Below, piece after piece: positions 1,910 through 44,004 of a DNA stretch of 64,000 nucleotides (the stretch's first letter is position 1; the number at the start of each line of letters is the position of its first letter). Under the pieces are notes generated by a model. That model saw only the letters and a program-made list of their open reading frames with translations, was not told the origin of the DNA and did not search any database. A program made the position numbers and the translations under genes. Source of the DNA: Rhizobium sp. C1. GTDB lineage: Bacteria; Pseudomonadota; Alphaproteobacteria; Rhizobiales; Rhizobiaceae. The stretch lies in assembly GCF_021026335.1 (NCBI RefSeq), contig NZ_JAJNCY010000001.1, positions 558,001 to 622,000 on the forward strand. The letters run 5' to 3'.

Positions 1910-1958
1910 ACTTAATCGATTTGCTCTTGCCCAGGGCGGTATCGAGTGCCAAAAAAGG

Positions 1959-1978
1959 CTCCAATAAAAACATTGGAG
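1959..1978 (+). promoter_or_regulatory. Stem-loop that includes the gnd ribosome binding site
   Basis: Inverted repeat CTCCAAT (1959-1965) / ATTGGAG (1972-1978) with a 6-base A-rich loop. The 3' arm holds GGAG (1975-1978), the only good Shine-Dalgarno sequence for the gnd ATG at 1987. If it folds in the mRNA, the ribosome site would be masked. A regulatory role is inference; a 7-bp stem could also arise by chance. Confidence 0.35.
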
Positions 1979-1986
1979 TGATCCCC

Positions 1987-3408: not shown

Positions 3409-4252
3409 GCGGATCGTTCTCCTTGGCACCAAGGGCGGTCCGGCAATCCGACCCGGCGGCCCTTCGCCGACGTCCAGCCTGATCGAGACGGGCGGGCGCG
3501 TGATCGCAGTCGATTGCGCGCTCGGCGTTTCGCGCGGCATCGTCAATGCCGGCGTGTCGCTGAAGGGGCTCAGTCACATCCTGGTGACCCACCTTCATTC
3601 CGATCATGTGCTGGAGCTGGGCGGGCTCATCCACACCGCCTGGACATCAGGTCTTTCGACGCCTGTGAAAGTCTATGGGCCGAAGGGCACGGCCGATGTC
3701 TGGCATGGTTTCCTTGCATCGCTGACGGTCGATATCGCGACGCGGATCGTTGATGAGGGCAGGCCGGTTCTTGCCGATCTGGTCAGGATCACGGAGATCG
3801 ACGAGGGGCCGGTTCTCGATGAGCCCGGTTTCCGTGTCACGGCGCTGCGCGTGCCGCATCCTCCGCTGGCCGATTGCTTCGCTTTCCGGGTGGAGATGCC
3901 TTCCGGCGTCGCCGTTTTTTCCGGTGACACGGCCTTTCATCCGCCGCTTGCGGATTTCGCCAGAGACGCGGATCTTCTCATTCACGAGGCGATGCTGCCG
4001 GAGGGGCTGGAGAGCATTATCCGCCGGACCGGCAACGGCTCACGGTTGCGGGAGCACCTCATTGCGTCTCACACCTTTGCCGCCGATGTCGGGCGGATTG
4101 CGACAATGGCCGGGGTCAAGCGCCTCGCGCTGAACCACATGATCCCCGCCGACGATCCGGATTTTACGGAGCTGCATTGGCGGGCTGCCGTGGCGGAGAC
4201 CTATGTCGGCGCATTGATCGTCGGGCGTGACGGGCTGGAAATTACCCTCTGA
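3401..4252 (+). CDS. MBL-fold metallo-hydrolase (RNase Z-like)
   Basis: Cytoplasmic 283-residue metallo-beta-lactamase-fold hydrolase. The zinc motif HxHxDH is complete (H64, H66, D68, H69 in THLHSDH). A later metal aspartate lies in FSGDTAFH, further ligands in LIHEAML, and a C-terminal histidine in LALNHMIP. The general pattern resembles ribonuclease Z or arylsulfatase-like MBL proteins, but the substrate cannot be read from sequence. The start overlaps the gnd stop by 8 bp, so it is probably co-transcribed with gnd. It lacks a signal peptide. Confidence is high for the fold and low for the substrate. Confidence 0.8.
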   Translation: MNERIVLLGTKGGPAIRPGGPSPTSSLIETGGRVIAVDCALGVSRGIVNAGVSLKGLSHILVTHLHSDHVLELGGLIHTAWTSGLSTPVKVYGPKGTADVWHGFLASLTVDIATRIVDEGRPVLADLVRITEIDEGPVLDEPGFRVTALRVPHPPLADCFAFRVEMPSGVAVFSGDTAFHPPLADFARDADLLIHEAMLPEGLESIIRRTGNGSRLREHLIASHTFAADVGRIATMAGVKRLALNHMIPADDPDFTELHWRAAVAETYVGALIVGRDGLEITL

Positions 4253-4267
4253 GGGCCATCCCGGTTC

Positions 4268-5320
4268 TCACGTTTCGTCCGTCCAGGTCGATGTCGCGAT
4301 GCTCTGCCAGCTTGTCGGGTCAGCGCCGGCGATACGGGCGAGCAGCGCGCGCGCAAGTTCCCGGCCGGCGCTGGTGAAATCCTCGTTCATGGCGATGATC
4401 TGCGGCTGGAACCACGGCAGGACGCCCGCGGATTCCTTCGCTGCCATATCGATCTCACGGCCGATCGCCTTGCCTGACGAGGCAATGCCTGCCGCCGCGG
4501 CAATCGCCGAACTGCCGGAGCAACAGATGAGCCCGTCGGGAGCGTTTGCGCCGCGCATGAGGTTTTCGACCGCGTCCTTCTGTTCTGCCGCGGGCACCTC
4601 AATGTCGATCCCGTCGAAGGGGACCTCTTCCAGACCATAATCCCGCAGGCCGCGTCTGAAGCCGTTCATGGTGTGGCCGGAATAGGTCAGCTGCTTGGGG
4701 GGCGGCAGGATCGCGAGGCGCTTGCGTCCGCGCGCCGCCAGCCTCTCGACCGCCTTGTAGGCGAAGGCCTCGTTGTCGAAATCGTGGTAGGGATGCGTGA
4801 GCCCCATTTCCGTGCGGCCATGCGTGACGAAGGGTATGTTGCGCTCCGTCAGAAAGCGGATGCGCGTGTCGTCCGGCTCGGTTCGCGAGAGGATGACCCC
4901 ATCGGCCGAGCCTGTCTCCGCGATGTAGCGGACCGGCACCATGGGGTCGGCGCTGCTGATATGCGGCGTCAGAACGAGGTGATAGGGCGTGCCCGTCAGC
5001 ACTTCGGATATGCCGTAGACCATGCGTCCGGTCATGGACATGATTTCAGCGTCCATGCCGAGCACCAGGGCGATAACATTGGTCTTGCCTGTTCGCAGGC
5101 GGACGCCGGCGCGGTTGGGCTGATAGCCGAGCTGGCGCGCGACAAGGCGCACACGTTCCTTCGTGTCTGCACCGATGTCGGGTGCATCCTTGAGCGCGCG
5201 GGAAACCGTCGTGACGCCCAGACCGGTGAGATAGGCAATCGTCTTCAGCGTCGGACGTTCGCCTTCCAGAATTTGCGGCGCATGAGCCTTTCCGGCGCTC
5301 GCCCGATCCGATCCTGACAC
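4268..5320 (-). CDS. LacI-family transcriptional regulator
   Basis: 350-residue LacI/GalR-type repressor. A helix-turn-helix lies at about residues 27-46 (LKTIAYLTGLGVTTVSRALK), followed by the hinge helix region and a periplasmic-binding-like sugar sensor domain. It reads divergently from the sugar importer starting at 5756, the usual arrangement for a local regulator. The start is a GTG at 5320 with GGAG at 5327-5330. Two near-identical palindromes in the intergenic region (5420-5433 and 5728-5741) have the central CG typical of LacI operators. It likely represses both itself and the importer operon until an oligosaccharide or derived sugar binds; the effector is unknown. Confidence 0.88.
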   Translation of the reverse strand: MSGSDRASAGKAHAPQILEGERPTLKTIAYLTGLGVTTVSRALKDAPDIGADTKERVRLVARQLGYQPNRAGVRLRTGKTNVIALVLGMDAEIMSMTGRMVYGISEVLTGTPYHLVLTPHISSADPMVPVRYIAETGSADGVILSRTEPDDTRIRFLTERNIPFVTHGRTEMGLTHPYHDFDNEAFAYKAVERLAARGRKRLAILPPPKQLTYSGHTMNGFRRGLRDYGLEEVPFDGIDIEVPAAEQKDAVENLMRGANAPDGLICCSGSSAIAAAAGIASSGKAIGREIDMAAKESAGVLPWFQPQIIAMNEDFTSAGRELARALLARIAGADPTSWQSIATSTWTDET

Positions 5321-5419
5321 CTTGCACTCCTTCGCGACACCATGCCTTCACTCGCCGGATTTTCGAGGTTCTGCCGTGCTTGGTCAATGGCATGTCTCCG
5401 CAAATATCCCGTCTCAAAT

Positions 5420-5433
5420 CTGTAACGTTACAG
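5420..5433. promoter_or_regulatory. Putative LacI-type operator, regulator side
   Basis: Perfect 14-base palindrome CTGTAACGTTACAG, about 100 bases upstream of the regulator start. The central CG and AACGTT core are typical of LacI/GalR operators. It matches the site at 5728-5741 in 12 of 14 positions. Confidence 0.6.
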
Positions 5434-5727
5434 TTCGGAAGTCGAGAGGGAATTTCCCCACAAAAGCCGAATCTGCGAATTTTGCCGAATGTCGCGTGAC
5501 AGCAATTATTTGTTGCATCGCGAATTCGCGCCGCAAAGTGATATCGTTCTCATATTCATAAAAATATCTTGTATTCAGTGACTTATGTGGATGCTGGAAC
5601 GTGCGTTTCTTCCTTTGTCGGGCCCGCCGTCCCTTTCTGTGGCACACGTTATGAGATTAATTTGGTGGGAGAAAAAAATTTGCGAAGAGCCGGTTGCGTG
5701 TTTCCGGACTTTGTCATAGGTTTTTTC

Positions 5728-5741
5728 CGGTAACGTTTCAG
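5728..5741. promoter_or_regulatory. Putative LacI-type operator, importer side
   Basis: CGGTAACGTTTCAG, 12 of 14 positions identical to the palindrome at 5420-5433. It ends just before the ribosome binding site (5743-5750) of the binding-protein gene, a position where a bound repressor would block transcription of the importer operon. Confidence 0.55.
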
Positions 5742-5755
5742 TGAGGGAGGAACTC

Positions 5756-6991
5756 ATGAATATTCGTTCTCTGGCTGCTGCACTCGCAGCATCCGTGACG
5801 CTTTCTGTCGGCGCAGCTCAGGCAACCGATCTTGAGGTGACGCATTGGTGGACATCCGGCGGGGAGGCTGCCGCTGTCGCCGAGCTTGCCAAGGCATTCG
5901 ACGCAACCGGCAATCACTGGGTCGACGGCGCGATTGCCGGTGGTGGTGATGTCGCGCGTCCGATCATGATCAGCCGCATCACCGGCGGCGATCCGATGGG
6001 CGCGACGCAGTTCAACACCGGCCGTCAGGCTGACGAACTGGTGGAAGCCGGCCTGATGCAGGACGTTACCGAGGTCGCCAAGGCCGAAGGCTGGGACAAG
6101 ATCATCAACCCGCCGAGCCTCTACAAATCCTGCGTCAAGGACGGCAAGTGGTATTGCGTGCCGATCAATATTCACTCCTGGCAGTGGATGTGGATGAACA
6201 ACGCGGTTTTCGAGAAGATCGGCAAGCCGGTTCCGAAAAACTGGGACGAGTTCGTCGCCGATGTGCCGGAACTGCAGAAGGCCGGCATCATTCCGCTCGC
6301 CGTGGGTGGTCAGGCCTGGCAGTCGAACGGTCTCTTCGGCGTTCTGCAGGTTGCGCTGGGCGGTGTTGATCTCTGGAAGAAGGTCAATGTCGACAAGGAC
6401 GCAAAGTTTGCCGCCGGTCCGGAAATGCTGAAGATCTTCAAGGCGGCTGCTCAGGCGCGCGAATGGTCCAAGGACACGAAGGTTCAGGACTGGAACCAGG
6501 CGACGAACATGGTCATCACCGGCAAGGCCGCCGCCCAGATCATGGGCGACTGGGCGCAGGGCGAATTCGCCGTGGCGGGCAAGGTCGCCGGCAAGGATTA
6601 TACCTGCCTTCCCGGGCTCGGCGTGAACGAAATCATCAGCACCGGCGGTGACAGTTTCTATTTCCCCAAGCAGAAGGATCCGGAAAAGACCAAGGCCCAG
6701 ATGGTTCTGGCTAAGACGCTGCTGGACAAGAAAACGCAGGTTGCCTTCAACCTCAAGAAGGGTTCGCTGCCGGTTCGCGGCGACGTCGATCTTGCTTCGG
6801 CCAATGACTGCATGAAGAAGGGTCTCGAAATCCTCAAGAAGGGTAATGTCCTGCCTGATGGCAATCAGACCCTGTCGCCGGACACGACCGGCCAGCTTCA
6901 GGACGTCATCGACAAGTTCTGGCACGACTTCTCCATCACCCCCGAAGAAGCCCAGAAGCAGTACGCTGCGATTATCGCCAAGGCCGATTGA
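5756..6991 (+). CDS. CUT1 sugar ABC transporter, periplasmic binding protein
   Basis: 411-residue extracellular solute-binding protein of family 1. It has a clear Sec signal peptide (short basic start, hydrophobic stretch, cleavage near GAAQA-TD at about residue 24). Mature motifs such as VTHWWTSGG and the tryptophan-rich HSWQWMWM region fit binding proteins for oligosaccharides. The start is the ATG at 5756, preceded by GAGGGAGG. It heads a run of nine same-strand genes and sits directly behind an operator candidate. The ligand is inferred from neighbours (beta-mannosidase, beta-xylosidase) to be a plant hemicellulose oligosaccharide; glucose/mannose-type ligands are possible. Confidence 0.9.
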   Translation: MNIRSLAAALAASVTLSVGAAQATDLEVTHWWTSGGEAAAVAELAKAFDATGNHWVDGAIAGGGDVARPIMISRITGGDPMGATQFNTGRQADELVEAGLMQDVTEVAKAEGWDKIINPPSLYKSCVKDGKWYCVPINIHSWQWMWMNNAVFEKIGKPVPKNWDEFVADVPELQKAGIIPLAVGGQAWQSNGLFGVLQVALGGVDLWKKVNVDKDAKFAAGPEMLKIFKAAAQAREWSKDTKVQDWNQATNMVITGKAAAQIMGDWAQGEFAVAGKVAGKDYTCLPGLGVNEIISTGGDSFYFPKQKDPEKTKAQMVLAKTLLDKKTQVAFNLKKGSLPVRGDVDLASANDCMKKGLEILKKGNVLPDGNQTLSPDTTGQLQDVIDKFWHDFSITPEEAQKQYAAIIAKAD

Positions 6992-7983: not shown

Positions 7984-8909
7984 TGACCGCCATTTCTTCC
8001 ACCAACACCAACTTGGGCACGAGCACGGGCGCAGAACCGCGTGGCGCCAAGCCGAAAAAGGCCTTTTCCCGCCGCAACATCATCATCTACGGCACGCTCG
8101 TCGTCGCCGCCGTCTATTACATCCTGCCGCTCTATGTGATGATCGTGACATCGCTGAAGGGCATGCCGGAAATCCGGCTTGGCAACATCTTTGCTCCGCC
8201 AGTGCAAATCACCTTCGAGCCGTGGGTCAAGGCCTGGTCGCAGGCCTGCACGGGTCTGAATTGCGACGGGCTTTCGCGCGGCTTCTGGAATTCCGTGATC
8301 ATCACGGTTCCATCGGTCATCATCTCGATCGCGGTCGCCTCGCTCAACGGCTACATGCTGGCCAACTGGCGGTTCAAGGGCGCTGATCTCTTCTTCACGA
8401 TCCTGATCGTCGGAGCCTTCATTCCCTATCAGGTGATGCTCTATCCGATGGTCATCATCCTGCGAGACCTCGGGGTCTATGGAACGCTTCAGGGCCTGAT
8501 CATCGTGCATACGGTCTTCGGCATGCCGATCCTGACGCTGCTCTTCCGGAACTATTTCACCGCACTGCCGGAGGAATTGTTCAAGGCGGCGCGTGTCGAC
8601 GGGGCGGGGTTCTGGAACATCTATTTCCGGATCATGCTGCCGATCTCGCTGCCGATCTTCGTGGTGGCGATGATCATTCAGATCACCGGTATCTGGAACG
8701 ACTTCCTTTTCGGCGTCGTCTTCACCAAGCCGGACACCTATCCGATGACGGTTCAGCTCAACAACATCGTGAACTCCGTTCAGGGGGTCAAGGAATACAA
8801 CGTCAACATGGCCGCGACGCTGATCACGGGGCTTGTGCCGCTGATCGTCTATTTCGTCTCCGGCAAACTGTTCGTGCGCGGCATCGCCGCCGGCGCTGTA
8901 AAGGGATAA
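7983..8909 (+). CDS. CUT1 sugar ABC transporter permease (second)
   Basis: 308-residue MalG-type inner-membrane permease. An approximately 35-residue polar cytoplasmic N-terminus precedes the first helix, and the EAA motif is visible (ELFKAARVDGAGFWNIYFR). It starts at an ATG that shares one base with the upstream TGA, and is followed after four bases by the ATPase gene. It pairs with the first permease; the conserved aspartate-glycine of the coupling loop is present. Confidence 0.92.
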   Translation: MTAISSTNTNLGTSTGAEPRGAKPKKAFSRRNIIIYGTLVVAAVYYILPLYVMIVTSLKGMPEIRLGNIFAPPVQITFEPWVKAWSQACTGLNCDGLSRGFWNSVIITVPSVIISIAVASLNGYMLANWRFKGADLFFTILIVGAFIPYQVMLYPMVIILRDLGVYGTLQGLIIVHTVFGMPILTLLFRNYFTALPEELFKAARVDGAGFWNIYFRIMLPISLPIFVVAMIIQITGIWNDFLFGVVFTKPDTYPMTVQLNNIVNSVQGVKEYNVNMAATLITGLVPLIVYFVSGKLFVRGIAAGAVKG

Positions 8910-8913
8910 TCGA

Positions 8914-9999
8914 ATGAACACGAGTGTTTCGGTCAAGGACCTGACGCTGAAATTCGGCGCGATCACAGTGCTGGACAAGCTCAATCTCGACATCGGCGAC
9001 GGCGAGTTTCTCGTTCTTCTCGGCTCGTCGGGCTGCGGCAAGTCCACTTTGCTCAACTGCATAGCAGGCCTTCTCGAACCGACGGACGGGCAGATCTTCA
9101 TCAAGAACAAGAACGTCACCTGGGAAGAGCCAAAGGACCGCGGCATCGGCATGGTGTTCCAGTCCTATGCGCTCTATCCGCAGATGACGGTGGAGAAGAA
9201 CCTCTCGTTCGGCCTGCGCATTGCCGGCATGGCGAAGGACGAGATCGACCGGCGCGTGGCGCGCGCCGCCGAAATCCTCCAGATCGGCCCGCTCCTGCAG
9301 CGCAAGCCTGCGGCGCTTTCCGGCGGTCAGCGTCAACGCGTCGCCATTGGCCGTGCGCTGGTGCGCGATGTGGATGTCTTTCTGTTCGACGAGCCGCTGT
9401 CGAACCTCGATGCCAAGCTGCGTTCCGAACTGCGCGTCGAGATCAAGCGCCTGCACCAGAATCTCAAGAACACGATGATCTACGTCACCCATGACCAGAT
9501 CGAGGCGCTGACGCTGGCCGATCGCATCGCTATCATGCGTGGCGGGGTCATTCAGCAGCTCGACGATCCGATGACGATCTACAACGAGCCGAAGAACCTC
9601 TATGTGGCGGGCTTCATCGGCTCGCCGGCGATGAACTTCTTCAAGGGCGAGATCACGACCGCAGAGGGCCGCCCGGCTTTCGTGACCAATGGGGTGACCT
9701 TCATGCTCGATGGCTACAAGGCCAAGGGCCTATTGCAACCGGGGACGAAAGCGGTGCTGGGGTTGCGTCCGGAGCACATAACGGTCGATGGGCCGGAGGC
9801 GGGCAACACACATCAGGCCGTCGTGGAGATCGAGGAGCCGATGGGCGCCGACAATCTGATCTGGCTGAAGCATGCCGGTCAGTCGATGTCCGTGCGCATT
9901 GGCGGGAGCCGGCGCTATAGGCCGGGCACGCAGCTGAGGCTGTCCTATGACATGGGCGTGGCTTCGCTCTTCGATGCCGAAAGCGAGCTGCGGATCTGA
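8914..9999 (+). CDS. Sugar ABC transporter ATP-binding protein (MalK/UgpC type)
   Basis: 361-residue cytoplasmic ATPase that powers the importer. It has Walker A GSSGCGKST (about 37-45), a Q-loop (VFQSYALYP), the signature LSGGQRQR, Walker B FLFDEPLSNLD and the switch histidine in VTHDQ. A C-terminal TOBE-like regulatory domain starts at about residue 240. The full length is typical of the MsmK/UgpC group. In rhizobia this ATPase is usually dedicated to its own operon, unlike the shared MsmK of Gram-positives. Confidence 0.94.
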   Translation: MNTSVSVKDLTLKFGAITVLDKLNLDIGDGEFLVLLGSSGCGKSTLLNCIAGLLEPTDGQIFIKNKNVTWEEPKDRGIGMVFQSYALYPQMTVEKNLSFGLRIAGMAKDEIDRRVARAAEILQIGPLLQRKPAALSGGQRQRVAIGRALVRDVDVFLFDEPLSNLDAKLRSELRVEIKRLHQNLKNTMIYVTHDQIEALTLADRIAIMRGGVIQQLDDPMTIYNEPKNLYVAGFIGSPAMNFFKGEITTAEGRPAFVTNGVTFMLDGYKAKGLLQPGTKAVLGLRPEHITVDGPEAGNTHQAVVEIEEPMGADNLIWLKHAGQSMSVRIGGSRRYRPGTQLRLSYDMGVASLFDAESELRI

Positions 10000-31544: not shown

Positions 31545-32132
31545 TCACGGGAGGGGGCCGCCCATCTTGCCGTGCTTTTCCGCCAGGATCCGCAGGCAGG
31601 CTTCGAAACCGGTGAGGTCGGAATAGAGAGCGTCCTGGCTCGCCTTGTGGATCACGACCGGTCCGCCGCGCCGTTCGACGCCGCCATGCAGCATAAGGTT
31701 TTCGATCATGTCGAAATCCTCGAGCGACAGGCCGTCCGGGCCGCGCTTGCGGCCATCTTCCGCCAGCTCCACCTTGCCGTCATACCAGGCAACCGTGCGG
31801 GCGTAGTGGTTTTCGGCGATGTTGGTATAGGCGGCCACGAGCTTGCCGGTGGCGCACATGTAGCCGAGTTCGAAGGCCGTGCCGGGATCGGCAGCAATGC
31901 CCCGGAATGGTGTGAGGTTGGCGATCACCCCGTCTGCGGCGTTCATGAAGCCCTCATCCGTCGCGCTGATGTTGAGGCCGAACTGGTGGCGCGTCGGTGC
32001 GGGTTCGATCACGAGATCGCCGGGGCAGATGGGCTCGAAACCATAGGCGCGCGTCATGGCTGCCTTGGCGTCGAGCACCGCGCGAGCATTGGGGAGAAAG
32101 ACCTCGGGTCCGGCGAGATAAAGCTTCAACAT
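31545..32132 (-). CDS. Nucleoside 2-deoxyribosyltransferase-like protein
   Basis: 195-residue cytoplasmic protein. The N-terminal YLAGPEVF motif and the later DPGTAFELGY motif, with its candidate catalytic glutamate, match the nucleoside 2-deoxyribosyltransferase family (DRTGG/RCL-like fold), which cleaves or exchanges deoxyribose-base bonds. The ATG at 32132 directly precedes the family motif; 30 more open codons upstream look non-coding. It is placed between two paralogous exported-protein genes and may be co-transcribed with the first. Substrate unknown. Confidence 0.75.
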   Translation of the reverse strand: MLKLYLAGPEVFLPNARAVLDAKAAMTRAYGFEPICPGDLVIEPAPTRHQFGLNISATDEGFMNAADGVIANLTPFRGIAADPGTAFELGYMCATGKLVAAYTNIAENHYARTVAWYDGKVELAEDGRKRGPDGLSLEDFDMIENLMLHGGVERRGGPVVIHKASQDALYSDLTGFEACLRILAEKHGKMGGPLP

Positions 32133-32230
32133 GAAAAGACCGTCCAGCGGTAAAGGAGGGGACAATGTCCCTTCATAGGGTCCGGGACGGTCTTCGGCAA
32201 TGAGCAGATAGCAAACGCGCAATCGCGTTC

Positions 32231-32722
32231 TTACTGCGCCAGCTTGATCGAATTGAGAATTTTGCCGATTTCAGGCATGTGCTTGTCTTCCTCGCCCTGG
32301 GTGCCCCAATAGGTGAGGACCAGCACGGTCTTCTCGTCGAGGATCAGGACTGCGAGGCCGACGGAGGCGGGACCGTCCTTGTCGGTGCCGGACCAGCTGA
32401 TATAGACGATGTCCTTGCCGTTCAGCTTGTCTTCCGAATACTTCTGCGTGTTCGTGTCGATCTTGATGCCCTGATCGTCGAGGAACTTGGCGGCGTCATC
32501 AATGATGCCATCCATCTTCTTGGGCGAGGCGAGGTCGACGGAGAAATAGACCGCCCCGTCGTCGGAGGTGCCTTCCAGACCATTGTCGGTCTCGTTGGTC
32601 TTCCACGAGCCGGGCATGTCAAGCGTGGCGATCGGGCGGTTGGACGGAATTTCCCAGACTTTTGCGTAGGCCGTGGACGCAAAGAGAAGCGCAGCCGAAG
32701 CCGCGATGATCAGCATTTTCAT
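32231..32722 (-). CDS. Small exported protein, paralogue 2 of 3
   Basis: 163-residue protein with a signal peptide ending near STAYA (residue 20). It shares IPSNRP, a WKTNET segment, SPKKMDGIIDDAAKFLDDQG and DKLNGKDIVYI with paralogue 1, and SGTDKDGPASVGLA, VLTYWGT and GEEDKH with paralogues 1 and/or 3. AGGGGG lies upstream of the ATG. A 9-bp inverted repeat lies 28 bases before the start. Function unknown. Confidence 0.75.
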   Translation of the reverse strand: MKMLIIAASAALLFASTAYAKVWEIPSNRPIATLDMPGSWKTNETDNGLEGTSDDGAVYFSVDLASPKKMDGIIDDAAKFLDDQGIKIDTNTQKYSEDKLNGKDIVYISWSGTDKDGPASVGLAVLILDEKTVLVLTYWGTQGEEDKHMPEIGKILNSIKLAQ

Positions 32723-32749
32723 TTGTGAACCCCCTCAGGAACGAAGCGA

Positions 32750-32772
32750 CGGGAATCTAGCCGAGATTCCCG
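32750..32772. promoter_or_regulatory. Inverted repeat upstream of paralogue 2
   Basis: CGGGAATCT (32750-32758) and AGATTCCCG (32764-32772) form a perfect 9-bp inverted repeat with a 5-base spacer, 28 bases upstream of the ATG at 32722. It could be a protein-binding site or an mRNA hairpin; no T-run follows. Confidence 0.35.
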
Positions 32773-32814
32773 AAATGCGGTAGGGGCGGAGATTGTTCTT
32801 TTGAAACAATGGTT

Positions 32815-32845
32815 AAGGGGCGGAGGTCTACACCATCCGCCCCTT
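32815..32845 (-). terminator. Terminator-like hairpin after paralogue 3
   Basis: AAGGGGCGGA (32815-32824) and TCCGCCCCTT (32836-32845) form a perfect 10-bp stem with an 11-base loop, 27 bases behind the stop of paralogue 3 on the minus strand. Only a short U-run follows. Confidence 0.6.
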
Positions 32846-32871
32846 TATCCCTGGCACTTGTCGGTCAGCCT

Positions 32872-33363
32872 TTACTTGGCAGCCTTGATCGAGCCGATGA
32901 TCGAGTTGATCTCGGCGCCGTGCTTGTCTTCTTCGCCCTTCGTGCCCCAATAGGTGAGGATGAGGGAGTTCTTTTCGTCGAGAACGACGATCGCAAGTCC
33001 GATGGTCGCCGGGCCGTCCTTGTCCGTGCCGGCCCAGCTGACGAAAACGGCATCCTTGCCGTTCAGCTTGTCCTGCTTCTGCTTCTCCGTCTTCTCGTCG
33101 ATCTTCACGCCCTGTTCTTCGAGGAACTTGGCGGCTTCCGGGATCGTCTTGTCGAGAGCACCGGTATCGGAAATATCAACGGCAAAATAGACGGCGCTGT
33201 CGGCAGACGTGCCTTCCAGGCCCGAGTCGGTTTCGTTGGCCGTCCAGCCGTCCGGCATGGAGATCGAAGCAACCGGCTTTTCGGACGGAATGCTGAAATC
33301 CTTGGCCTGCGCGGCGGTGGAGAGCAGAAGCGCGGCAGCCGCGGCCATTACGAAATTCTTCAT
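32872..33363 (-). CDS. Small exported protein, paralogue 3 of 3
   Basis: 163-residue protein with a signal peptide ending near STAAQA (residue 20). Its mature part has the family motifs IPSEKP, a WTANET segment, SWAGTDKDGPATIGLA and LTYWGTKGEEDKH, plus a Lys/Glu-rich middle segment (EEQGVKIDEKTEKQKQ). The start at 33363 is chosen because the signal peptide begins there; 22 open codons upstream are not supported. It has its own terminator-like hairpin downstream. Function unknown. Confidence 0.75.
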   Translation of the reverse strand: MKNFVMAAAAALLLSTAAQAKDFSIPSEKPVASISMPDGWTANETDSGLEGTSADSAVYFAVDISDTGALDKTIPEAAKFLEEQGVKIDEKTEKQKQDKLNGKDAVFVSWAGTDKDGPATIGLAIVVLDEKNSLILTYWGTKGEEDKHGAEINSIIGSIKAAK

Positions 33364-33472
33364 GTGCAGTGGGTCCTTGTGGCAAAAATTGCGCGCAGAC
33401 CATACATGCGAATTCACGCATGCGGACATTCATCCCGGAAATGTTGTCGGATGGACTTGGGTGGGACCGACT

Positions 33473-36397
<2,925 letters not shown>

Positions 36398-36591
36398 GCC
36401 CGGAATATGGGGCGAGTCAGGGGAAAAGGGAAGGGGCGGAGGGGCAGGAAGGGCGGGGATGCTGACAGGAAGTGGAAGTGGTGTGTTAATATTATGCAGT
36501 ACAGAATATGTTTCGTGTCATTAGCATTATGAATGTAAGGAAGTTGGACGATCGGAAAGTGGTTTCTACCTATGTAGATCGAGAGCACGGT

Positions 36592-37443
36592 TTATGCATT
36601 TTTCTCGATAGCCCGTAGTTCATGCCACAGCTGCCTTGATAGATCCGCATTGTCTTTAACATGATCCATTCGCTCGATGCTTATCAATATCTCAGATGCC
36701 GCCCGGGTATCCAAAAGTATGTGACCGTTTTGCTCTGCGTTTACACGAGCACCTTGCTGATATCCACTATGTGCAACAAAGCACCCCATCAGAGGAGCTG
36801 AGCAATTTCTAAACCAGGCTGGGATGATCCGGGTCAGTTCTTCGCGATTGTTCCTGATTGATGTCATGCAGTCATTGAAAGATTGAATTTTCTCTCGCGC
36901 GACGGCGCTCTTGTAGTATTTTGACTGGCCGACTATACGAACGCCACGTCCGCCGGATATGAAGAGCTTCGATTTTGAGAAAGCCGGGACGATTGCAAGG
37001 AAGTCTATTCCGAACTCGTTCCCCGGGGGCGTAATGTGGACGCGGCTGGCACCCAATTTCCGCATTAAAAGACCCCCAAGGAATTCAAAGTTGCGGTCAT
37101 TTTCGAGCGATTCTATCCAATCAATCGCAAAGGATCGATTTCTCAGTTTCTGAAGACGCCTGCGATCCTGATCGTCGTCGATTATCCACTTTACCCGCAA
37201 AGATGGCCGTTCAATGTAGCTGAAGGTAGGTAGCCCGCCGAATCCGATATGTTCGAGATCATAGACTCTCAAATCGGAAAACAATGCTTTCCGAAATTTT
37301 GCTACGAACTCCTCGTCGCGAATAGATGTCTTTCCTTGCAAATGTTTTATTGCGCTTAGAGAAAGAGATTCTATAGAAAATTCTCCGACCGCTGGCTGAA
37401 GACGAAATATTCCTTTTATTATATCGGATCTAGATAAGCTCAT
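36592..37443 (-). CDS. Mrr-like PD-(D/E)xK restriction endonuclease
   Basis: 283-residue protein. The second half contains an Mrr-type nuclease fold: FEFLGGLLMRKLGA with E120, then GIDFLAIV with D147, then VGQSKYY with Q173-x-K175, the expected E...D...QxK catalytic set. The first ~110 residues are unassigned and may recognise DNA or the partner. The ATG overlaps the stop of the upstream ParB-like gene by 4 bp, so both are co-translated. Codon use is AT-richer than the flanking genes, suggesting horizontal transfer. Probable role: cleavage of foreign or modified DNA, as in type IV restriction. Other nuclease roles are possible. Confidence 0.75.
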   Translation of the reverse strand: MSLSRSDIIKGIFRLQPAVGEFSIESLSLSAIKHLQGKTSIRDEEFVAKFRKALFSDLRVYDLEHIGFGGLPTFSYIERPSLRVKWIIDDDQDRRRLQKLRNRSFAIDWIESLENDRNFEFLGGLLMRKLGASRVHITPPGNEFGIDFLAIVPAFSKSKLFISGGRGVRIVGQSKYYKSAVAREKIQSFNDCMTSIRNNREELTRIIPAWFRNCSAPLMGCFVAHSGYQQGARVNAEQNGHILLDTRAASEILISIERMDHVKDNADLSRQLWHELRAIEKNA

Positions 37444-38612
37444 GATGCTAGGAACGGATTTATTTTTTCTTCTGTCTTCGAGATCGAGCTCAGTAATTCT
37501 TTAAGTGTTTTCCTATGGTTCGCATTGGTTAGTACGGAAAGGGGTGTGTTTTGAAGTTGTTTGTCCGCTTCTTGTAACGCTCTAAAGAATCGGTCAACTG
37601 TAGATGTTTCGTCGTCTCGATTTTGTTCGAGTTCCGCTAGAATCGCTCGATTGTACGACTTCTCCAAGTCTGTTCCGCTTCTGAATTCCATCCAGTCTTT
37701 GGAAGATTTGTGGATCAAATAGGAGATATTTCTAAGATCATCTCGCTTGGAAATGCGTCTTCTTTGCCACGCATCTGTCACCTCAGATTTCGTCGGCTCC
37801 TTGTCGATGCCGTCTGTTTCTTCCTCATCCTTGTTGACTGGATAGAACCACGACATGAACTCATTCAGGTTAGCAGAGTCGTTGAAGCGCTTTGCATCAT
37901 CGTCCCATTGTAACCATTCCTTGAGAGCAATGCTGCTTCGTCCAAACAATTCCTGGAAAAACGGATAAACTCGTTCGTCAATATACCGACCAAACTCGGT
38001 TTCTTCCTTTGCTTGCTGGAATGCGTAGTACCCTCGGACCCATTGTGCCGCGCCAAATGCAGATAACCCGAAACTTTTCCCAACATGGGTGAAGCTAAGG
38101 CCCTGAGCCTCCATCTGTTCAACAAGGAGTTTTGCCTTGTTGAAAGCTGGCCATTCTGAAATTCCAGAAATATGTCGAAGACCTTGGAAAATCCAAGATG
38201 CGTTCACGCCATCTTGTGCACCTTCGTAAAGGAGGCACGGAATAATCTTCAGTGTCTCCATGATAGCATTCGGTAGCTTGCTGCCGTCTTCTGCGTGGCC
38301 GTTTATCTGCTTGGCGGCACAAATTCTTCGATTTCCTTCCAGCACCATGTACTGATCTTGGCTGAGACGCCGCACTACTACACGATCAATCGGAAGGTAT
38401 CCGTTGTGCTCCATAACTGACTTAAGCTTGTCAACGTCATGGTTTTCGACCAAACGGCTGGCAGTTGCATCCTGAACCTCAGTGGTGACGGCGTCATTGT
38501 CGGGTATAAAAATCCAGTCACTTCCCACAAAACGCGGGTTGTTTGGGTCCAAAAAAAGCTGTTGCAGCGGCACTTCGATGGGCGTCAGGTCTACGGAAAG
38601 CGGGGTGTGCAT
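37440..38612 (-). CDS. ParB/Srx-fold domain protein, partner of Mrr-like nuclease
   Basis: 390-residue protein from the ATG at 38612. The N-terminal part (about 10-130) has ParB-like boxes: DPNNPRF, then NGYLPIDRVVVR and YMVLEGNRRICAAK, resembling the nucleotide-binding ParB/Srx fold. A middle helical region (about 140-220) has a ParB-like helix-turn-helix candidate (SFTHVGKSFGLSAFGAAQWV). The rest is charged and helical, with no assigned domain. It is clearly not a chromosome-partition ParB: there is no parA or parS nearby. The start is uncertain because only a weak GAG lies upstream and the frame stays open. AT-rich like its partner. Confidence 0.65.
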   Translation of the reverse strand: MHTPLSVDLTPIEVPLQQLFLDPNNPRFVGSDWIFIPDNDAVTTEVQDATASRLVENHDVDKLKSVMEHNGYLPIDRVVVRRLSQDQYMVLEGNRRICAAKQINGHAEDGSKLPNAIMETLKIIPCLLYEGAQDGVNASWIFQGLRHISGISEWPAFNKAKLLVEQMEAQGLSFTHVGKSFGLSAFGAAQWVRGYYAFQQAKEETEFGRYIDERVYPFFQELFGRSSIALKEWLQWDDDAKRFNDSANLNEFMSWFYPVNKDEEETDGIDKEPTKSEVTDAWQRRRISKRDDLRNISYLIHKSSKDWMEFRSGTDLEKSYNRAILAELEQNRDDETSTVDRFFRALQEADKQLQNTPLSVLTNANHRKTLKELLSSISKTEEKINPFLAS

Positions 38613-38865
38613 TTGAATTGTCTCAGAACCAATGGGCTTATTTTGATCTGATGATATAGATGGTTGGTCGTCAAGACATGGAATGCTACCTAAAGAAGAA
38701 TTTTGAATCGGGAGGCTTTTCGTTCCCTGTCGTACAGAGACTGTTCTTGGTAGTGACAGCTCGGGATGTAATAGCCTCCACCCTTGCCAACCTCCCCACA
38801 TCCCTTGAATACTCCCCCGCAAGCCCGGAACCCCGCGTGATTCCCGGCTCTGGGGACACATATCC

Positions 38866-39888
38866 ATGAATCTCTTCCGGTCGCCGGGGCGCACTCTGGC
38901 GAATATCGTGCTGTTCAATCTCACGGTCGTGGTGATCGCGACCTTCGCCTATATGTGGGCGGGGTGGGATTTCGGCGATGCGTTCTACATGGTGCTGCTC
39001 ACCGTCTACACGGTCGGCTATGGCGAAGTGCATCCGATCGACACGACCTATCTCCATCTGGTGACCGTGTTTCTAATGATCTTCGGCTGCACGGGGATGA
39101 TCCTTCTCACCGGTGCACTCATTCAGTTTCTCACCATCACGCAGATCCGGCAAATCCTGGGGAGCAATCGCATGCAATCCGAAATCGACAAGCTGAAGGA
39201 CCATGTCATCGTCGTCGGCTTCGGGCGCATCGGCTATATGCTGGCGCGGGAGCTCAAGGCGGCGGGGCGCAAGTTCGTCGTGCTGGAAATGAGCGAGGCG
39301 CGGGCCTCCGAGATCCGCGAGAACGGCTATCTCTGTCTCGTCGGCGACGGCACGCATGAGGAGGTGCTGAAACATGCCGGGATAGACCGGGCGCATACGC
39401 TGGCCTGCGTGCTGCCGAACGATGCGGCCAATGTCTTCATCACGCTCTCGGCCCGCGCGCTCAATCCGAAGATCGAGATCATCGCGCGCGGCGAGGTGCC
39501 GTCCACCGAGAACAAGTTGAAGCAGGCCGGCGCCGACAAGGTCGTGCTGCCGGCGCATATCGGGGCGGAGCGGATTGCCGAACTGATCCTCTATCCGGAA
39601 GCCGCGCGGCGGCTGCGAACCAGTTCGCAGATGCAGGAGCTGGAGCACTCCCTGCGGGGGCTGGGGCTGGAAATGGATGTCGTCATCGTGCCGGCCGAGG
39701 GGCCGCTGACGGGGCTTTCCATCGCCGAGATCGAGGCGACGGCGCATGGCGGCTTCTTCATCGTGCAGGTCAACCGGCAGAGCGGCGAGACGATTGCGTC
39801 ACCCGATCCTGCGCTGGTCGTCGCCAGTGGGGACGGGATCGTGATCGTGGGGCGCAGCGTGACGGCGGCGCGGGCCTTGTTCGAGTAA
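38866..39888 (+). CDS. Potassium channel with TrkA-N (RCK) domain
   Basis: 340-residue inner-membrane K+ channel of the Kch/MthK-like type. Two helices flank the pore with selectivity filter TVGYG (about residues 48-52). A regulatory TrkA-N domain follows from about residue 107 (VIVVGFGRIGYMLARE, a Rossmann motif), then a TrkA-C-like domain at the end. It likely sets potassium conductance in response to NAD(H) or ions. It is divergent from the ParB-like gene and marks the right border of the AT-richer cassette. Confidence 0.88.
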   Translation: MNLFRSPGRTLANIVLFNLTVVVIATFAYMWAGWDFGDAFYMVLLTVYTVGYGEVHPIDTTYLHLVTVFLMIFGCTGMILLTGALIQFLTITQIRQILGSNRMQSEIDKLKDHVIVVGFGRIGYMLARELKAAGRKFVVLEMSEARASEIRENGYLCLVGDGTHEEVLKHAGIDRAHTLACVLPNDAANVFITLSARALNPKIEIIARGEVPSTENKLKQAGADKVVLPAHIGAERIAELILYPEAARRLRTSSQMQELEHSLRGLGLEMDVVIVPAEGPLTGLSIAEIEATAHGGFFIVQVNRQSGETIASPDPALVVASGDGIVIVGRSVTAARALFE

Positions 39889-40065
39889 GGGAAAGTTCGT
39901 CTATCGATTTCGATAACCTTGGCAGATTAAATCTACGTAAGATTCGAGCCGCGCCGTAATCGTGTCGGCATGGATGGGTAAATCTGCGAAATTGACGATG
40001 CGAAAATGCTCAATCGAACGGTGTAGATCCCACGTTGCAGTCGTGTTTACCATGGAGGTTTCCGC

Positions 40066-41601
40066 ATGGCGCTTGCAGATGACATGGCAGTGACGGCGCA
40101 AAGGCGCTTCGGCTTCGGCCCGGCGCCCGATGGCTGGCGAAAGGTCGGTCCGGATGCGCGAGAAGCGGTTCTTGCGCAGCTTGATGGTTATAAATTTTCT
40201 GACGGATCGGGATTGCTTGCTTCGACCGACATCCTCCAGCAATTGCGTGAACGGCAACGGGAGGTGCGGGATGCGCGCATGGCGGTCGCCAGTCCTGCCG
40301 CCCCCGCCAACGGGGTATCGGCGAACGGCGCGCCTGTCAGCGGGACTGCAGCAAATGTCGCTCCGGCCCATGCGGCGGCTGGCGCGGCCAAGGCTCCGGA
40401 TGGGGCCGCGATGGCGGGCTCCGTGACCATGGTCAAGGCGCCGGACGCGGCTGCGGCCGCCACCGCCGAGAACAAGGAAATATTCAAGCAGAAGAACGAG
40501 TTCGTCCGCATCCAGTTCGATAATGAGGCCGCCTATCGCCAGCAGATGGCCGTAACGTCCGAGCGGCCGCTGATCGAGCGGCTGACGGATTTCTGGGCGG
40601 GGCATTTCTGCATTTCCTGCTCCAAGGGCGAAGATGTGCGGGTCATTGCCGGTGCCTATGAGCGTGAGGCGATCCGGCCTCATGTCACCGGCCGGTTTCG
40701 CGATATGCTGGGCGCGATCATGCATCACCCGGCCATGCTTTACTATCTCGACAATCAGGTTTCCTTCGGGCCGAATTCCAAGGCCGGTCAGAAACAGAAG
40801 AAGGGGTTGAACGAAAACCTCGGCCGCGAGCTTCTGGAGCTGCATACGGTCGGCGTGAAGGCCGGATACAATCAGACCGATGTGACCAACGCGGCACGTA
40901 TCATCACCGGCTGGGGCATTGCGGGGGACAAGGATCCGACGCCCGGGGCGTTCAAGTTCGACGCTAACCGGCACGAGCCCGGCGCCTTTACGGTGATGGG
41001 AACGCCCTTTTCCGAGGGCGGTGAGGCTCAGGGCGAAGCGCTGCTCGACATGCTGGCCGCGCATCCGGCGACCGCGCAACATATCGCCGACAAGCTGGTG
41101 CGCCATTTCGTCGGCGACAAGGCCTCGCCGACGCTGGTTCAGACGGTCGCCAAGCGCTTCCACGAAACGGATGGCGATCTGCGCGAGACTTTCATGACGC
41201 TGGTCAAAGCGCCGGAGGCCTGGAGCCTGGCGCCCGCCAAAGTCATCTCTCCCTATGACATGGCGATCTGCTGCGAGCGCGTTCTCGCGCTGAATACCGA
41301 TCCGAAAAAGGTGGTCAACTTTGCCCGGGTGCTGGGGCAGCCACTCTGGACGCCGCGCTCTCCCAACGGCTTCCCTGATACCGACATGGCCTGGGCCGCG
41401 CCCAATGCGCTGGTCAAGCGCTTTGACTATGCGCTTCAGCTCGCCGGACAGCCGAAGAACCCGCCTGAGCCGATGGAGCTCGCCAATGCGCTCTTCGGTC
41501 CTGCGCTGAAGCCCGACATGCAGACGGCGATCAAACGGGCCGCAAGCCGCCGCGAGGCGCTGGCCATGATTGTCATGTCCCCCGAAATTCAGGTGAGGTA
41601 A
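40066..41601 (+). CDS. DUF1800-family protein
   Basis: 511-residue protein of the DUF1800 family. Typical motifs: QQMAVTSERPLIERLTDFWAGHF, ENLGRELLELHTVGV, DVTNAARIITGW and a late SPNGFPDT. An Ala/Pro/Gly-rich, low-complexity segment (about residues 75-130) is inserted between the first helices. GGAGG lies 8 bases before the ATG. It is followed after four bases by a DUF1501 gene, the standard pairing. The pair is linked to export or cell-surface assembly in other bacteria; no reaction is known. No obvious signal peptide. Confidence 0.85.
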   Translation: MALADDMAVTAQRRFGFGPAPDGWRKVGPDAREAVLAQLDGYKFSDGSGLLASTDILQQLRERQREVRDARMAVASPAAPANGVSANGAPVSGTAANVAPAHAAAGAAKAPDGAAMAGSVTMVKAPDAAAAATAENKEIFKQKNEFVRIQFDNEAAYRQQMAVTSERPLIERLTDFWAGHFCISCSKGEDVRVIAGAYEREAIRPHVTGRFRDMLGAIMHHPAMLYYLDNQVSFGPNSKAGQKQKKGLNENLGRELLELHTVGVKAGYNQTDVTNAARIITGWGIAGDKDPTPGAFKFDANRHEPGAFTVMGTPFSEGGEAQGEALLDMLAAHPATAQHIADKLVRHFVGDKASPTLVQTVAKRFHETDGDLRETFMTLVKAPEAWSLAPAKVISPYDMAICCERVLALNTDPKKVVNFARVLGQPLWTPRSPNGFPDTDMAWAAPNALVKRFDYALQLAGQPKNPPEPMELANALFGPALKPDMQTAIKRAASRREALAMIVMSPEIQVR

Positions 41602-41605
41602 CACC

Positions 41606-42844
41606 ATGTTCGAATTTCTGCATCCGACCCGCCGTGGCTTCCTGCTGACCGCCAGCGCCTTCACCGCCTGGTCCTTCGCACCACAATTTGCCAGCGCCGC
41701 GCCGGGGCGCGATCCGCGCTTCCTGATGGTCGTGCTGCGCGGCGGCATGGACGGGCTTGCAGTCATCGAGCCGGCCTTCGATCCGGATTTCGAGCGCGCC
41801 CGGGCCGGCTTGATTCTGGGTGCTGACGGGAGTCCGGCAGGCCTTCCCATCGTCGGCGGCTTTGTGATGAACCCGAAACTTGCCGCGCTGCATGACATGT
41901 TTGCCCAGGGGCAGGCGCTGGCGATCCATGCCGTGGCGACCCCCTATCGCGACCGCTCGCATTTCGACGGGCAGGACGTTCTGGAAAGCGGGATGCCGGG
42001 TACAGGTGCCGTGAGCACCGGCTGGCTCAATCGCGCCATGTCGCAGTTGGGCAAGGCGGGCAGCGTGAAAACCGGAGGCCTGGCGATCGGTCCGACGGTG
42101 CCGCTGATCATGCGCGGGCCCGCCTCGACGCTGACCTGGGCAGCCGGTGGCGTCAAGCCGGCACCGGAGGATGCACGGGCCCGACTTTTGAACTTCTACA
42201 AGTCGGCAGACCCGACGCTCGCCAACGCCTTCGGTCGCGGCCTCGATCTCGAACGTATTGCCGTTGCCAATGCCGGGATGAATGCGGCCATGGGACAGCC
42301 CGGTGCCGCCCATCCGGAGGCGAATTCGAATTTCGTCAAGGGCATGGAAATGGTCGCAAAGCTCTTCACCGACCCCAATGGCCCGCGCATCGGCGCGATC
42401 GATCTCGATGGCTGGGACACGCATGCGACCGAGCGGCCCGAAGGTGACAATCTCGGCAAGGCGCTGGCGGAACTTGATGCGGGTCTGGCGGCGCTGAAAG
42501 TTTCGCTCGGGCCGGCCTGGGACGAGACTGTCGTGGTCGTGGCCACCGAATTCGGCCGCACCGTGCGAATGAACGGCACGGAAGGCACCGACCACGGCAC
42601 AGCCACGGTGGCGTTCCTGGCCGGCGGTGCGGTCAAGGGTGGCCGCGTGCTCGCCGATTGGCCCGGTCTCGCGGACAAGGCACTGTTCCAGCAACGCGAT
42701 CTTGCGCCGACGACGGACCTGCGGGCTGTGCTGAAGGGCGCGTTGCGCGATCATCTCGGGATCGAGGAAGCGGCGCTTGGGAGGGATGTGTTCCCGGACA
42801 GCGGCGCTATCAAGCCCTTGGATGGGTTGTTGAAGGTGGGGTGA
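41606..42844 (+). CDS. DUF1501-family Tat-exported protein
   Basis: 412-residue protein with a twin-arginine signal peptide (TRRGFLLTASAF, cleavage near ASAA, about residue 32). The DUF1501/sulfatase-like fold follows: LMVVLRGGMDGLA, RSHFDGQDVLESG, DLDGWDTHA, and VVATEFGRTVRMNGTEGTDHG. The latter motifs resemble metal-binding residues of the alkaline-phosphatase superfamily. It is co-transcribed with the DUF1800 gene. A periplasmic hydrolase role is plausible but unproven. Confidence 0.86.
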   Translation: MFEFLHPTRRGFLLTASAFTAWSFAPQFASAAPGRDPRFLMVVLRGGMDGLAVIEPAFDPDFERARAGLILGADGSPAGLPIVGGFVMNPKLAALHDMFAQGQALAIHAVATPYRDRSHFDGQDVLESGMPGTGAVSTGWLNRAMSQLGKAGSVKTGGLAIGPTVPLIMRGPASTLTWAAGGVKPAPEDARARLLNFYKSADPTLANAFGRGLDLERIAVANAGMNAAMGQPGAAHPEANSNFVKGMEMVAKLFTDPNGPRIGAIDLDGWDTHATERPEGDNLGKALAELDAGLAALKVSLGPAWDETVVVVATEFGRTVRMNGTEGTDHGTATVAFLAGGAVKGGRVLADWPGLADKALFQQRDLAPTTDLRAVLKGALRDHLGIEEAALGRDVFPDSGAIKPLDGLLKVG

Positions 42845-42873
42845 GGGGCGCGATTGAAACCTTCCGCGCTGAT

Positions 42874-44004
42874 TTATCGATTAACCTCCGCAAATCCAAG
42901 CAGCCTCTCCGTGAAATCCGCAATTGCCATCGTGTCATCCAGATCGAACACCGGCAGATCCGTATCGTCCACCGCATGATCTGCCGCAATAGCCACGATA
43001 TGCGGATCTTCCGGAGCCAGCGGAACGCGGCTCTTGGCCTCCAGTCGCCGCGCCTCGATCTTTGGGACCGGTTCGCGCTTGTAGCCTTCGATCACGACAA
43101 TATCGCAGGGGGCAAGGCGGGACAGCACCTCCTCGAAGGCGGGTTCGGGATTGCCGCGCAGCTCGCGCATGATGGCGTAGCGGGTGCCGGAGACAATGGT
43201 GACTTCATGCGCGCCGGCTTGCCGGTGGCGGAAGCTGTCGGCGCCGACCTTGTCGATGTCGAAGTCGTGGTGAGCATGCTTGATGGTCGAGACGCGGTAG
43301 CCGCGGGCGATCAGCTCCTCGACGAGGCGGACCGTCAGTCCCGTCTTGCCGGAATTCTTCCAGCCGGAAATGCCCAGAATTTTCGGGGAGTGTCCAAGGC
43401 CCATCAGGTCTCTGGCGCGCTCGAAATCGCGCGGGCGGTTGACGTTGAAGAAGCTGTGGGGGGGCTCATCCACGAAATCGATGAGGCGGACCTGACATGT
43501 TGCGGCGAAGGCGCGGATGGCGCGGCTCTCGCCGGTCTCCAGCCAGTGACGCAGGCGGGCGGCGAGCGCCACAGGCCAAAGTGCGAAAGCCGGTTCGGGA
43601 TCGCCGCAATAGGCGGCCATGGCGATGGTCTCGGGGTCAACAATGGCGCTGGCAAGGCGGGCGACCAGCGTTTCCGGGAAGAAAGGTGCGTCGGCGGGGA
43701 CGGTGGCAAGGTGTGTTGCAGTCGGCAGGCTTGAGGCGAGATGGTCCAGGCCGGCAAGGATGCCTGCGAGCGGGCCCTGCTGCCCTTCCAGCGCGTCGGG
43801 CAGGAGGTCGAAGCCAAGGCTGTCGAGCGCCGTATTGGACGTATTGATGAAGACACGGGGCACCTGGTTTGCGAGGCGCGCCGCAACGATCTGTGCCAAA
43901 GGTTTGCCGGCTAAGCGTTTGACCGTTTTGTCCTCGCCCATGCGGGTGGAGCGGCCGCCTGCCAGGACCAGACCAGGAAATTTCTGGAGAGTTTCTTCGC
44001 TCAT
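42874..44004 (-). CDS. Fused MobA-MobB molybdenum cofactor protein
   Basis: 376-residue fusion. Residues about 1-200 are MobA (molybdenum cofactor guanylyltransferase): GLVLAGGRSTRMGEDK nucleotide motif, PADAPFFP and FFNVNRPRDF. Residues about 205-376 are MobB, a GTP-binding adaptor: GWKNSGKTGL P-loop, STIKHAHHDFD and VVIEGYKRE. The two parts are normally separate neighbouring genes in alphaproteobacteria. An internal ATG lies at the junction (DLMGLG), the likely remnant of the mobB start. It converts Mo-molybdopterin to the guanine dinucleotide form. moaA lies 1.7 kb downstream on the same strand. Confidence 0.9.
   Translation of the reverse strand: MSEETLQKFPGLVLAGGRSTRMGEDKTVKRLAGKPLAQIVAARLANQVPRVFINTSNTALDSLGFDLLPDALEGQQGPLAGILAGLDHLASSLPTATHLATVPADAPFFPETLVARLASAIVDPETIAMAAYCGDPEPAFALWPVALAARLRHWLETGESRAIRAFAATCQVRLIDFVDEPPHSFFNVNRPRDFERARDLMGLGHSPKILGISGWKNSGKTGLTVRLVEELIARGYRVSTIKHAHHDFDIDKVGADSFRHRQAGAHEVTIVSGTRYAIMRELRGNPEPAFEEVLSRLAPCDIVVIEGYKREPVPKIEARRLEAKSRVPLAPEDPHIVAIAADHAVDDTDLPVFDLDDTMAIADFTERLLGFAEVNR

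Follow-up and report, generated by a model that had tools for sequence, protein, structure and literature searches.

A ParB-like protein gene overlapping an Mrr-type nuclease gene at a variable site in Rhizobium sp. C1: a candidate two-component restriction-like module

The analyzed stretch of 64,000 nucleotides from Rhizobium sp. C1 (referred to as the window) carries two minus-strand genes between uvrB and a K+ channel gene, which encode a ParB-like protein and an Mrr-family nuclease. A sequence-only reading had described them as a two-gene cassette in which the stop codon of the first gene overlaps the ATG of the second, and the overlap was confirmed: 4 bp are common to both genes. The locus comprises the following features.

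36484..38772, variable cargo segment between uvrB and the K+ channel/TrkA gene
37440..38612, minus strand, gene of the ParB-like protein, 390 aa (N-terminal ParB fold, residues ~10-150; helical KorB/Noc DNA-binding-like region, ~153-306; C-terminal helices)
38529..38549, minus strand, ParB box I, DPNNPRF, residues 22-28
38325..38345, minus strand, ParB box II or P-motif, VLEGNRR, residues 90-96
37440..37443, minus strand, 4-bp overlap of the ParB stop and the nuclease start
36592..37443, minus strand, gene of the Mrr-family PD-(D/E)xK nuclease, 283 aa (N-terminal region ~1-110, mostly helical; then the Mrr_cat domain)
37084..37086, minus strand, Mrr catalytic E120
37003..37005, minus strand, Mrr catalytic D147 (GNEFGIDF)
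36919..36927, minus strand, Mrr QxK (Q173, K175)

The two ParB boxes and the four catalytic residues that the same reading had named are all present, and E120, D147, Q173, and K175 are invariant in 5 of 5 aligned Mrr-type members. A longer open reading frame with a GTG start would extend the ParB-like gene to 38924; the ATG was used because the homologs in Paracoccus caeni and Roseicyclus marinus begin there and because the extra N terminus corresponds to flanking sequence that is present in relatives, too. The GC content of the pair is 46.8%, compared to 61.2% for the window, and values as low were found in 5 of 620 2-kb segments of the stretch, including those covering the pair. No tRNA was detected in the window and no Rfam match over 32000-43000. 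Scans for promoters and terminators returned 3 and 5 sites, respectively, compared to 2.6 and 3.1 in shuffled sequences.

The immediate neighbors of the pair encode UvrB and a TrkA_N ion channel; parA is not among them. Homology of the flanks to four genus relatives ends at ~36478-36483 and ~38773-38800. The same uvrB/K+-channel junction was found in 4 of 5 genus relatives, each time with a different cargo; the remaining one (G003) showed no close match to the channel gene, and none of the five contained a match to the ParB gene of the window. The cargo consists of a DUF4062 protein in G001 (Pfam E 2e-30), a NACHT protein in G004 (Pfam 4.1e-6, just above the cut-off), an MqsA-like antitoxin and an AAA_31 protein matching PDC-M28B in G005 (4.2e-30), and a 410-aa protein without a match together with a glyoxalase in G002. 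PADLOC matched 1 of the 5 cargo proteins scanned from the relatives, namely, the G005 protein. We take DUF4062 and NACHT proteins to be defense-type proteins, and the cargo of three of the four relatives (DUF4062, NACHT, and PDC-M28B) was read as defense-like. The cargo of G002 is not defense-like. The junction (36484-38772; L145-L148) constitutes a cargo hotspot. Based on its low GC content and the variable site, the pair is probably horizontally moving.

A search of genome contigs with the ParB-like protein returned 4 loci. P. caeni (L002) and R. marinus (L003) carry the same pair in the same order (70%/56% identity), so that the co-occurrence of the homologs was upheld. A comparison between these two loci yielded dN/dS values of 0.061 (ParB) and 0.076 (Mrr); these ratios rest on L002 and L003 only, as dS was saturated in comparisons with the window. 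Both genes are under purifying selection, judged by these substitution ratios, and the recurrence of the pair in the same order together with these values indicates more than a chance arrangement. In the Roseicyclus contig, a second ParB_N protein (4948-5772, Pfam E 4.2e-9) is encoded just upstream of the pair. Two viral contigs (L011 and L012) also carry the pair, with ParB identities of 43 to 45% and nuclease identities of 28% and 22%. Serine recombinase genes flank the L012 pair (1750-3348 and 8062-9102), which suggests an integrative element. A third viral contig (L013) ends right after its ParB gene.

The pair is rare in what was searched. Among 385 genomes of the class, a nuclease profile had a match in 1, the window's own; among 398 genomes of the phylum, it had a match in 2. 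The second genome (G545) has an Mrr gene whose listed neighbors look like fatty acid synthesis genes, and there was no ParB-like match in that stretch. No match was obtained by tblastn in plasmids with the nucleases of the window and of L012, and the L012 pair was not found in the E. coli genomes searched. None of the libraries scanned models the ParB-Mrr pair, nor was it described in the literature searched, a body of texts that excludes most subscription journals and preprints.

By sequence, the ParB-like protein lies below the Pfam threshold for ParB_N (E 0.0012; 19.2 bits compared to a cut-off of 26.3). NCBIfam gave nothing near a cut-off for either protein (TIGR00180, 13.8 bits compared to 58.45), the ParB-like protein matched only PHROGs families of unknown function, and PDB sequence searches with either protein alone yielded no relevant match. 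An AlphaFold2 model of the ParB-like protein, built from a 71-row alignment, reached a mean pLDDT of 89.1. Its best Foldseek match in the PDB was Noc (7ol9, E 8.6e-7), followed by weaker matches to KorB and ParB. In VIA comparisons, the N-terminal domain superimposed on ParB 7bnr with a Z score of 10.5 (rmsd of 2.1 over 94 residues), and residues 10-306 superimposed on KorB 8qa9 with a Z score of 10.3 (rmsd of 3.9 over 196). The predicted structure of the protein alone thus agrees with the ParB fold that had been proposed, with the P-motif kept (R95/R96); according to the model, the 390-aa protein has a ParB-type N-terminal fold with a P-motif.

Across 80 nonredundant members, D22, N25, and R27 of box I are invariant, although for D22 and N25 this is partly built in for the 11 loci that were new in the second scan, which used box-I and NG[YF]LP patterns. 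E92 to R96 of the P-motif are likewise invariant in the 80 members, which is partly built in because the pattern of the viral scan contained V[VL]EGNRR[ILF]xA; N94 also holds in loci found without the P-motif search pattern. Read from the alignment ends and the motif, the family has N25 and N94 where canonical ParB has the Gln of QPR and the Glu of GERR. These would be the counterparts of Q52 and E93 of Myxococcus ParB, which we take to be the residues tied to hydrolysis, and mutant ParB structures (7bnr and 7o0n) were among the structure matches of the ParB-like protein. The Asn residues at both positions suggest, as far as a comparison of residues goes, nucleotide binding with altered hydrolysis. 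Nucleotide-dependent DNA binding is suggested by the ParB fold, the HTH-like region, and the kept P-motif arginines together. However, 17 of 28 ParB-fold proteins tested in a 2025 survey bound no nucleoside triphosphate, according to its main text (PMC12704722), which counts against assuming nucleotide binding here.

The nuclease matched the Pfam Mrr_cat domain with an E value of 2.8e-7 (31.1 bits; cut-off, 21). Of the other Mrr-type members, L002, L011, and L012 were scanned, and their nucleases were above the cut-off as well. There was no PHROGs match for the nuclease, and PDB sequence searches returned unrelated matches only for the nuclease profile A4 and none for profile A7. The best AlphaFold2 model, calculated from a 5-row alignment, had a pLDDT of 80.8, while the other four models ranged from 49 to 56. 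Foldseek aligned it with MspJI (4f0p, E 1.1e-6), AspBHI (4oc8, 5.6e-5), and FokI (1fok, 8.5e-4), with TM-scores of only 0.34 to 0.37 of the query. VIA returned 1y88 (Z score of 11.9; rmsd of 2.6 over 113 residues), FokI 2fok (10.2; 4.0 over 165), MspJI (9.7; 4.7 over 156), and 2vld (9.7; 2.7 over 102); the ranks in both lists say nothing against families absent from them. The PDB entry of AspBHI is titled modification-dependent, and MspJI is modification-dependent, too. The modeled likeness to these enzymes speaks for the catalytic domain and not for the same specificity. We consider it highly probable that the nuclease cuts DNA.

At E < 1e-45, a profile of the ParB-like protein gathered 103 ParB-like genes. 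This number excludes copies of the window (L091, L121, and L135) and of named loci (L122 and L123 duplicate L011 and L012, and L007 duplicates L006) as well as weaker matches with E above 1e-45, such as L005, L086, and L096-L120. The viral scan covered the best 80 of 112 confirmed loci. A recognized partner lies directly downstream in 98 of the 103 genes: it is gp96-like for 81 genes, an Mrr nuclease for 5, and a TOPRIM-like protein for 12 genes that are themselves fused to an OLD-like ATPase. Four of the 5 ParB genes without a recognized partner are located at a contig end, and the fifth (L095) is adjoined by a 355-aa protein outside these classes. After reduction to 80 nonredundant loci at 90%, the counts were 64 (gp96), 7 (OLD/TOPRIM), 5 (Mrr), and 4 (none). 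With the longest open reading frames used, the partner starts between -127 and +15 bp from the ParB stop, and it starts at or before the stop in 66 of 98 cases. "TOPRIM-like" is our own reading; the L004 partner matched nothing in Pfam. The gp96-like partner had no Pfam match either; D199, D203, Q225, and K235 are kept in 55 to 57 of 57 gp96 proteins. This D..D..Q..K pattern resembles a nuclease signature, and gp96 is thus a presumed nuclease. An hhalign comparison of Mrr with gp96 gave a weak match that falls on the active sites (probability of 15; 0.2 with fewer sequences).

The classes differ in their association with methyltransferases. Counting nonredundant loci with at least 900 bp downstream, a methyltransferase was found within 300 bp in 54 of 58 gp96-class loci, 1 of 7 TOPRIM-class loci, and 0 of 4 Mrr-class loci. 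The open reading frames of the window gave no match at an E value of 1e-3 to the 18 methyltransferase queries. These queries came from the loci themselves; 5 carried an outside label (L006, annotated; L008, L059, L034, and L013, Pfam), and the rest were picked by motif. With the window as the fifth Mrr locus, 54/58 versus 0/5 gave a Fisher p of 1.8e-5, an optimistic value since the loci are related. Few independent cases underlie the absence of a methyltransferase from the Mrr class, because there are only 5 Mrr-type members in two clusters. The four gp96-class exceptions are both pairs of L010, the locus of L009, and that of L041; the methyltransferase of L041 is 863 bp away, and one L010 pair has one 2 kb upstream. 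Several types occur (mth-like C5, D12, longer C5, and N4); for the 58 labeled rows, the ParB tree requires 6 changes between them, counted with short-flank partners included and without a shuffle control. In L013 (4009-7140), a D12 methyltransferase (4009-4842) lies upstream of an Mrr-clade ParB gene that starts at 5989, and its partner is beyond the contig end.

In the ParB tree, the Mrr-type ParBs and L013 form one clade (100/100), which groups with the OLD/TOPRIM type (100/98), and the gp96 type stands apart. The Mrr-TOPRIM grouping is less certain than the clades, because the tree is midpoint rooted and long branches meet there. Four effector labels, including "none," required 5 changes, compared to a shuffled mean of 14.7, and a number as low was reached in 0 of 200 shuffles. 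By this sequence-based tree, the effector class follows the ParB tree.

The gp96 branch is found in prophages. Phage Wphi (L006 96-3266, gp98-gp96-mth), L008, and L015-L090 combine a ParB-like gene, a gp96-like gene, and varied methyltransferases. This prophage locus looks like a restriction-modification system, and no description of it was found in the literature searched. The three-gene Wphi locus was at least 80% covered in 103 of 5,426 E. coli genomes, and any match was obtained in 139; the 12 E. coli annotations listed read ParB N-terminal domain protein, hypothetical protein, and cytosine methyltransferase. In two further contigs, ParB/gp96-like pairs lie near Z1-domain genes (L010 1230-9633, by Pfam; L009 1-7803, annotated). 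L010 contains two such pairs on opposite strands with a C5 methyltransferase nearby, and L009 has DUF262 and PD-(D/E)XK genes near its pair.

We propose that the pair constitutes a two-component restriction-like module against phages or plasmids whose nuclease acts under license from the ParB-like protein, a reading that we regard as reasonably likely as a whole. We are rather confident of a role in defense. The defense context is read from the variable site, from the ParB relatives in the PD-lambda-5 and PDC-M38 models, and from those located next to methyltransferases. Gating of the nuclease by the ParB-like protein appears moderately probable, and dependence on a DNA modification is a tentative suggestion. 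The ParB-like protein would bind DNA via its HTH-like region and nucleotide via its P-motif, act as a clamp or sensor, and recruit or license the Mrr nuclease, so that invading phage or plasmid DNA would be cut. Self DNA would probably be spared by a type IV-like rule, in which only a foreign mark or state is cut, and not by a cognate methylase, because no methyltransferase adjoins the pair, unlike in the gp96 branch. A simple 5-methylcytosine-dependent rule was rejected as the default: the host genome has 1 C5-cytosine methyltransferase (the Paracoccus genome has 2), which argues against cutting of any DNA with this mark. The sequence-only reading had assigned sensing of modified or foreign DNA to the ParB-like part and cutting to the Mrr part, with GmrSD as a parallel. 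The pairing, the ParB fold with its phosphate-binding motif, the Mrr-type nuclease, and the defense-like context stand. The missing DUF262 (GmrS) match in Pfam, the apparent replacement of two hydrolysis-linked residues by Asn, and the C5 methyltransferase of the host speak in part against a simple form of that reading.

Three other explanations were weighed. The pair could be an abortive-infection nuclease: upon sensing infection through phage DNA ends, replication, or a phage protein, the ParB-like protein would free the nuclease on all DNA, so that the cell dies. We consider this unlikely: Mrr-type nucleases are typically restriction enzymes, and methyltransferases accompany the most numerous class of the family, which points to self marking rather than suicide. 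The neighboring ParB clade, with its fused OLD/AbiLi-like ATPase and its TOPRIM-like partner, nevertheless speaks for it, as does the description of PD-lambda-5 as compacted restriction-modification plus abortive infection (PMC9519451). Less probable still is a methylase acting in trans, where the pair would cut DNA lacking the mark of a chromosomal, e.g., CcrM-like, methyltransferase. The adjoining methyltransferases of the gp96-class relatives fit this explanation, and an N6_N4_Mtase match was found in 8 of 8 genomes (the window's, the L002/L003 hosts, and five genus relatives). However, the five genus relatives have no pair, so this family is no specific partner; moreover, a CcrM partner would be unlikely for the L012 pair, which lies among serine recombinases on a contig of low GC content (33% without the pair). 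That the gene encodes a partition or regulatory ParB with an accidental nuclease neighbor, as the ParB/Noc/KorB fold might suggest, is very improbable given the neighbors (uvrB and a K+ channel gene, not parA), the conserved pairing, an effector class that tracks the ParB tree, and the other cargo held by the site in relatives.

The restriction-like module that we favor for the pair may belong to a wider scheme, which we put forward as a speculative possibility. A modular restriction superfamily would share a single ParB-fold switch, which recognizes the target and licenses cutting, and would combine it with one of three exchangeable nuclease modules: a gp96-like nuclease with any of several methyltransferase types, an OLD-like ATPase together with a TOPRIM-like protein, or an Mrr nuclease that has no methyltransferase. 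With Asn at the ParB hydrolysis residues, the nucleotide would act as a latch, and the clamp would stay on its target until the nuclease cuts. The window pair would be a methyltransferase-free offshoot that distinguishes foreign DNA in some other way. In chromosome segregation, ParB serves as the model of a CTP switch; the scheme, if true, would connect the ParB clamp with restriction. The family offers a concrete, testable role for one orphan ParB-fold group, as a switch placed before DNA-cutting modules that can be exchanged. One of these modules occurs in E. coli together with its methyltransferase, and the pair itself is a compact two-gene system that lends itself to tests in laboratory E. 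coli.

Among known systems, the closest profile match of the ParB-like protein was PDC-M38A of PADLOC (1.3e-49 over residues 12-378). PDC-M38 is a PADLOC candidate comprising a ParB fused to an OLD-like ATPase and a second protein, read as TOPRIM-like; it was named in no paper found by the literature search. L004 showed a full PDC-M38A match and a PDC-M38B match. The likeness consists of the PDC-M38A match and the neighboring clade in the ParB tree, but the window match extends no further than position 363 of the 715-position profile, and the window has an Mrr nuclease without a PADLOC match where PDC-M38B would be expected. Membership in PDC-M38 was rejected, since both the OLD-like ATPase and the PDC-M38B partner are absent from the window. 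PD-lambda-5 has been validated in E. coli (Vassallo 2022; PMC9519451), and the ParB-like N terminus is common to both (best match, 2.5e-11 over residues 12-114). The full-length PD-Lambda-5_A remained unmatched and no PD-Lambda-5_B methyltransferase adjoins the pair, so membership was rejected here as well; the PD-Lambda-5_B model matched the D12 methyltransferase of L008 (6.6e-95). The Wphi gp98-gp96-Mth locus shares a full-length ParB homolog and, immediately after it, a protein whose D..D..Q..K pattern is reminiscent of nucleases, but its gp96-like partner is outside Pfam and a methyltransferase adjoins in the 54 of 58 loci of its class.

In GmrSD, BrxU, and SspE, a DUF262 NTPase of the ParB/Srx fold has been described as the partner of a nuclease (PMC10952713). 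SspE (6jiv) was low in the structure list of the ParB-like model (Z score of 4.3; rmsd of 3.9 over 114 residues), and the pair differs by having no DUF262, Mrr in place of DUF1524, and EGNRR in place of DGQQR. Neither DUF262 nor DUF1524 was matched in Pfam up to an E value of 1, and membership in GmrSD was rejected. The Mrr-type catalytic domain is common to MspJI, AspBHI, and Mrr, but recognition would sit here in the separate ParB-like protein, and the N terminus of the nuclease is mostly helical in the model. Canonical ParB, Noc, and KorB share the ParB-fold domain and the HTH-like region but not the nuclease operon, and the pair has no adjoining parA, GNRR for GERR, and NPR for QPR; a ParABS partition system was rejected in view of the UvrB and TrkA_N channel neighbors. 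An earlier survey described a HEPN family in an operon with ParB nuclease and DNA methylase genes (PMC3710099). The 2025 survey reported many orphan ParB-fold proteins on mobile elements and suggested antidefense or phage-host roles for prophage ParB fusions, and Mrr does not occur in its main text (PMC12704722). The pair is a new variant within the ParB-plus-nuclease group, some members of which are validated or listed as candidates.
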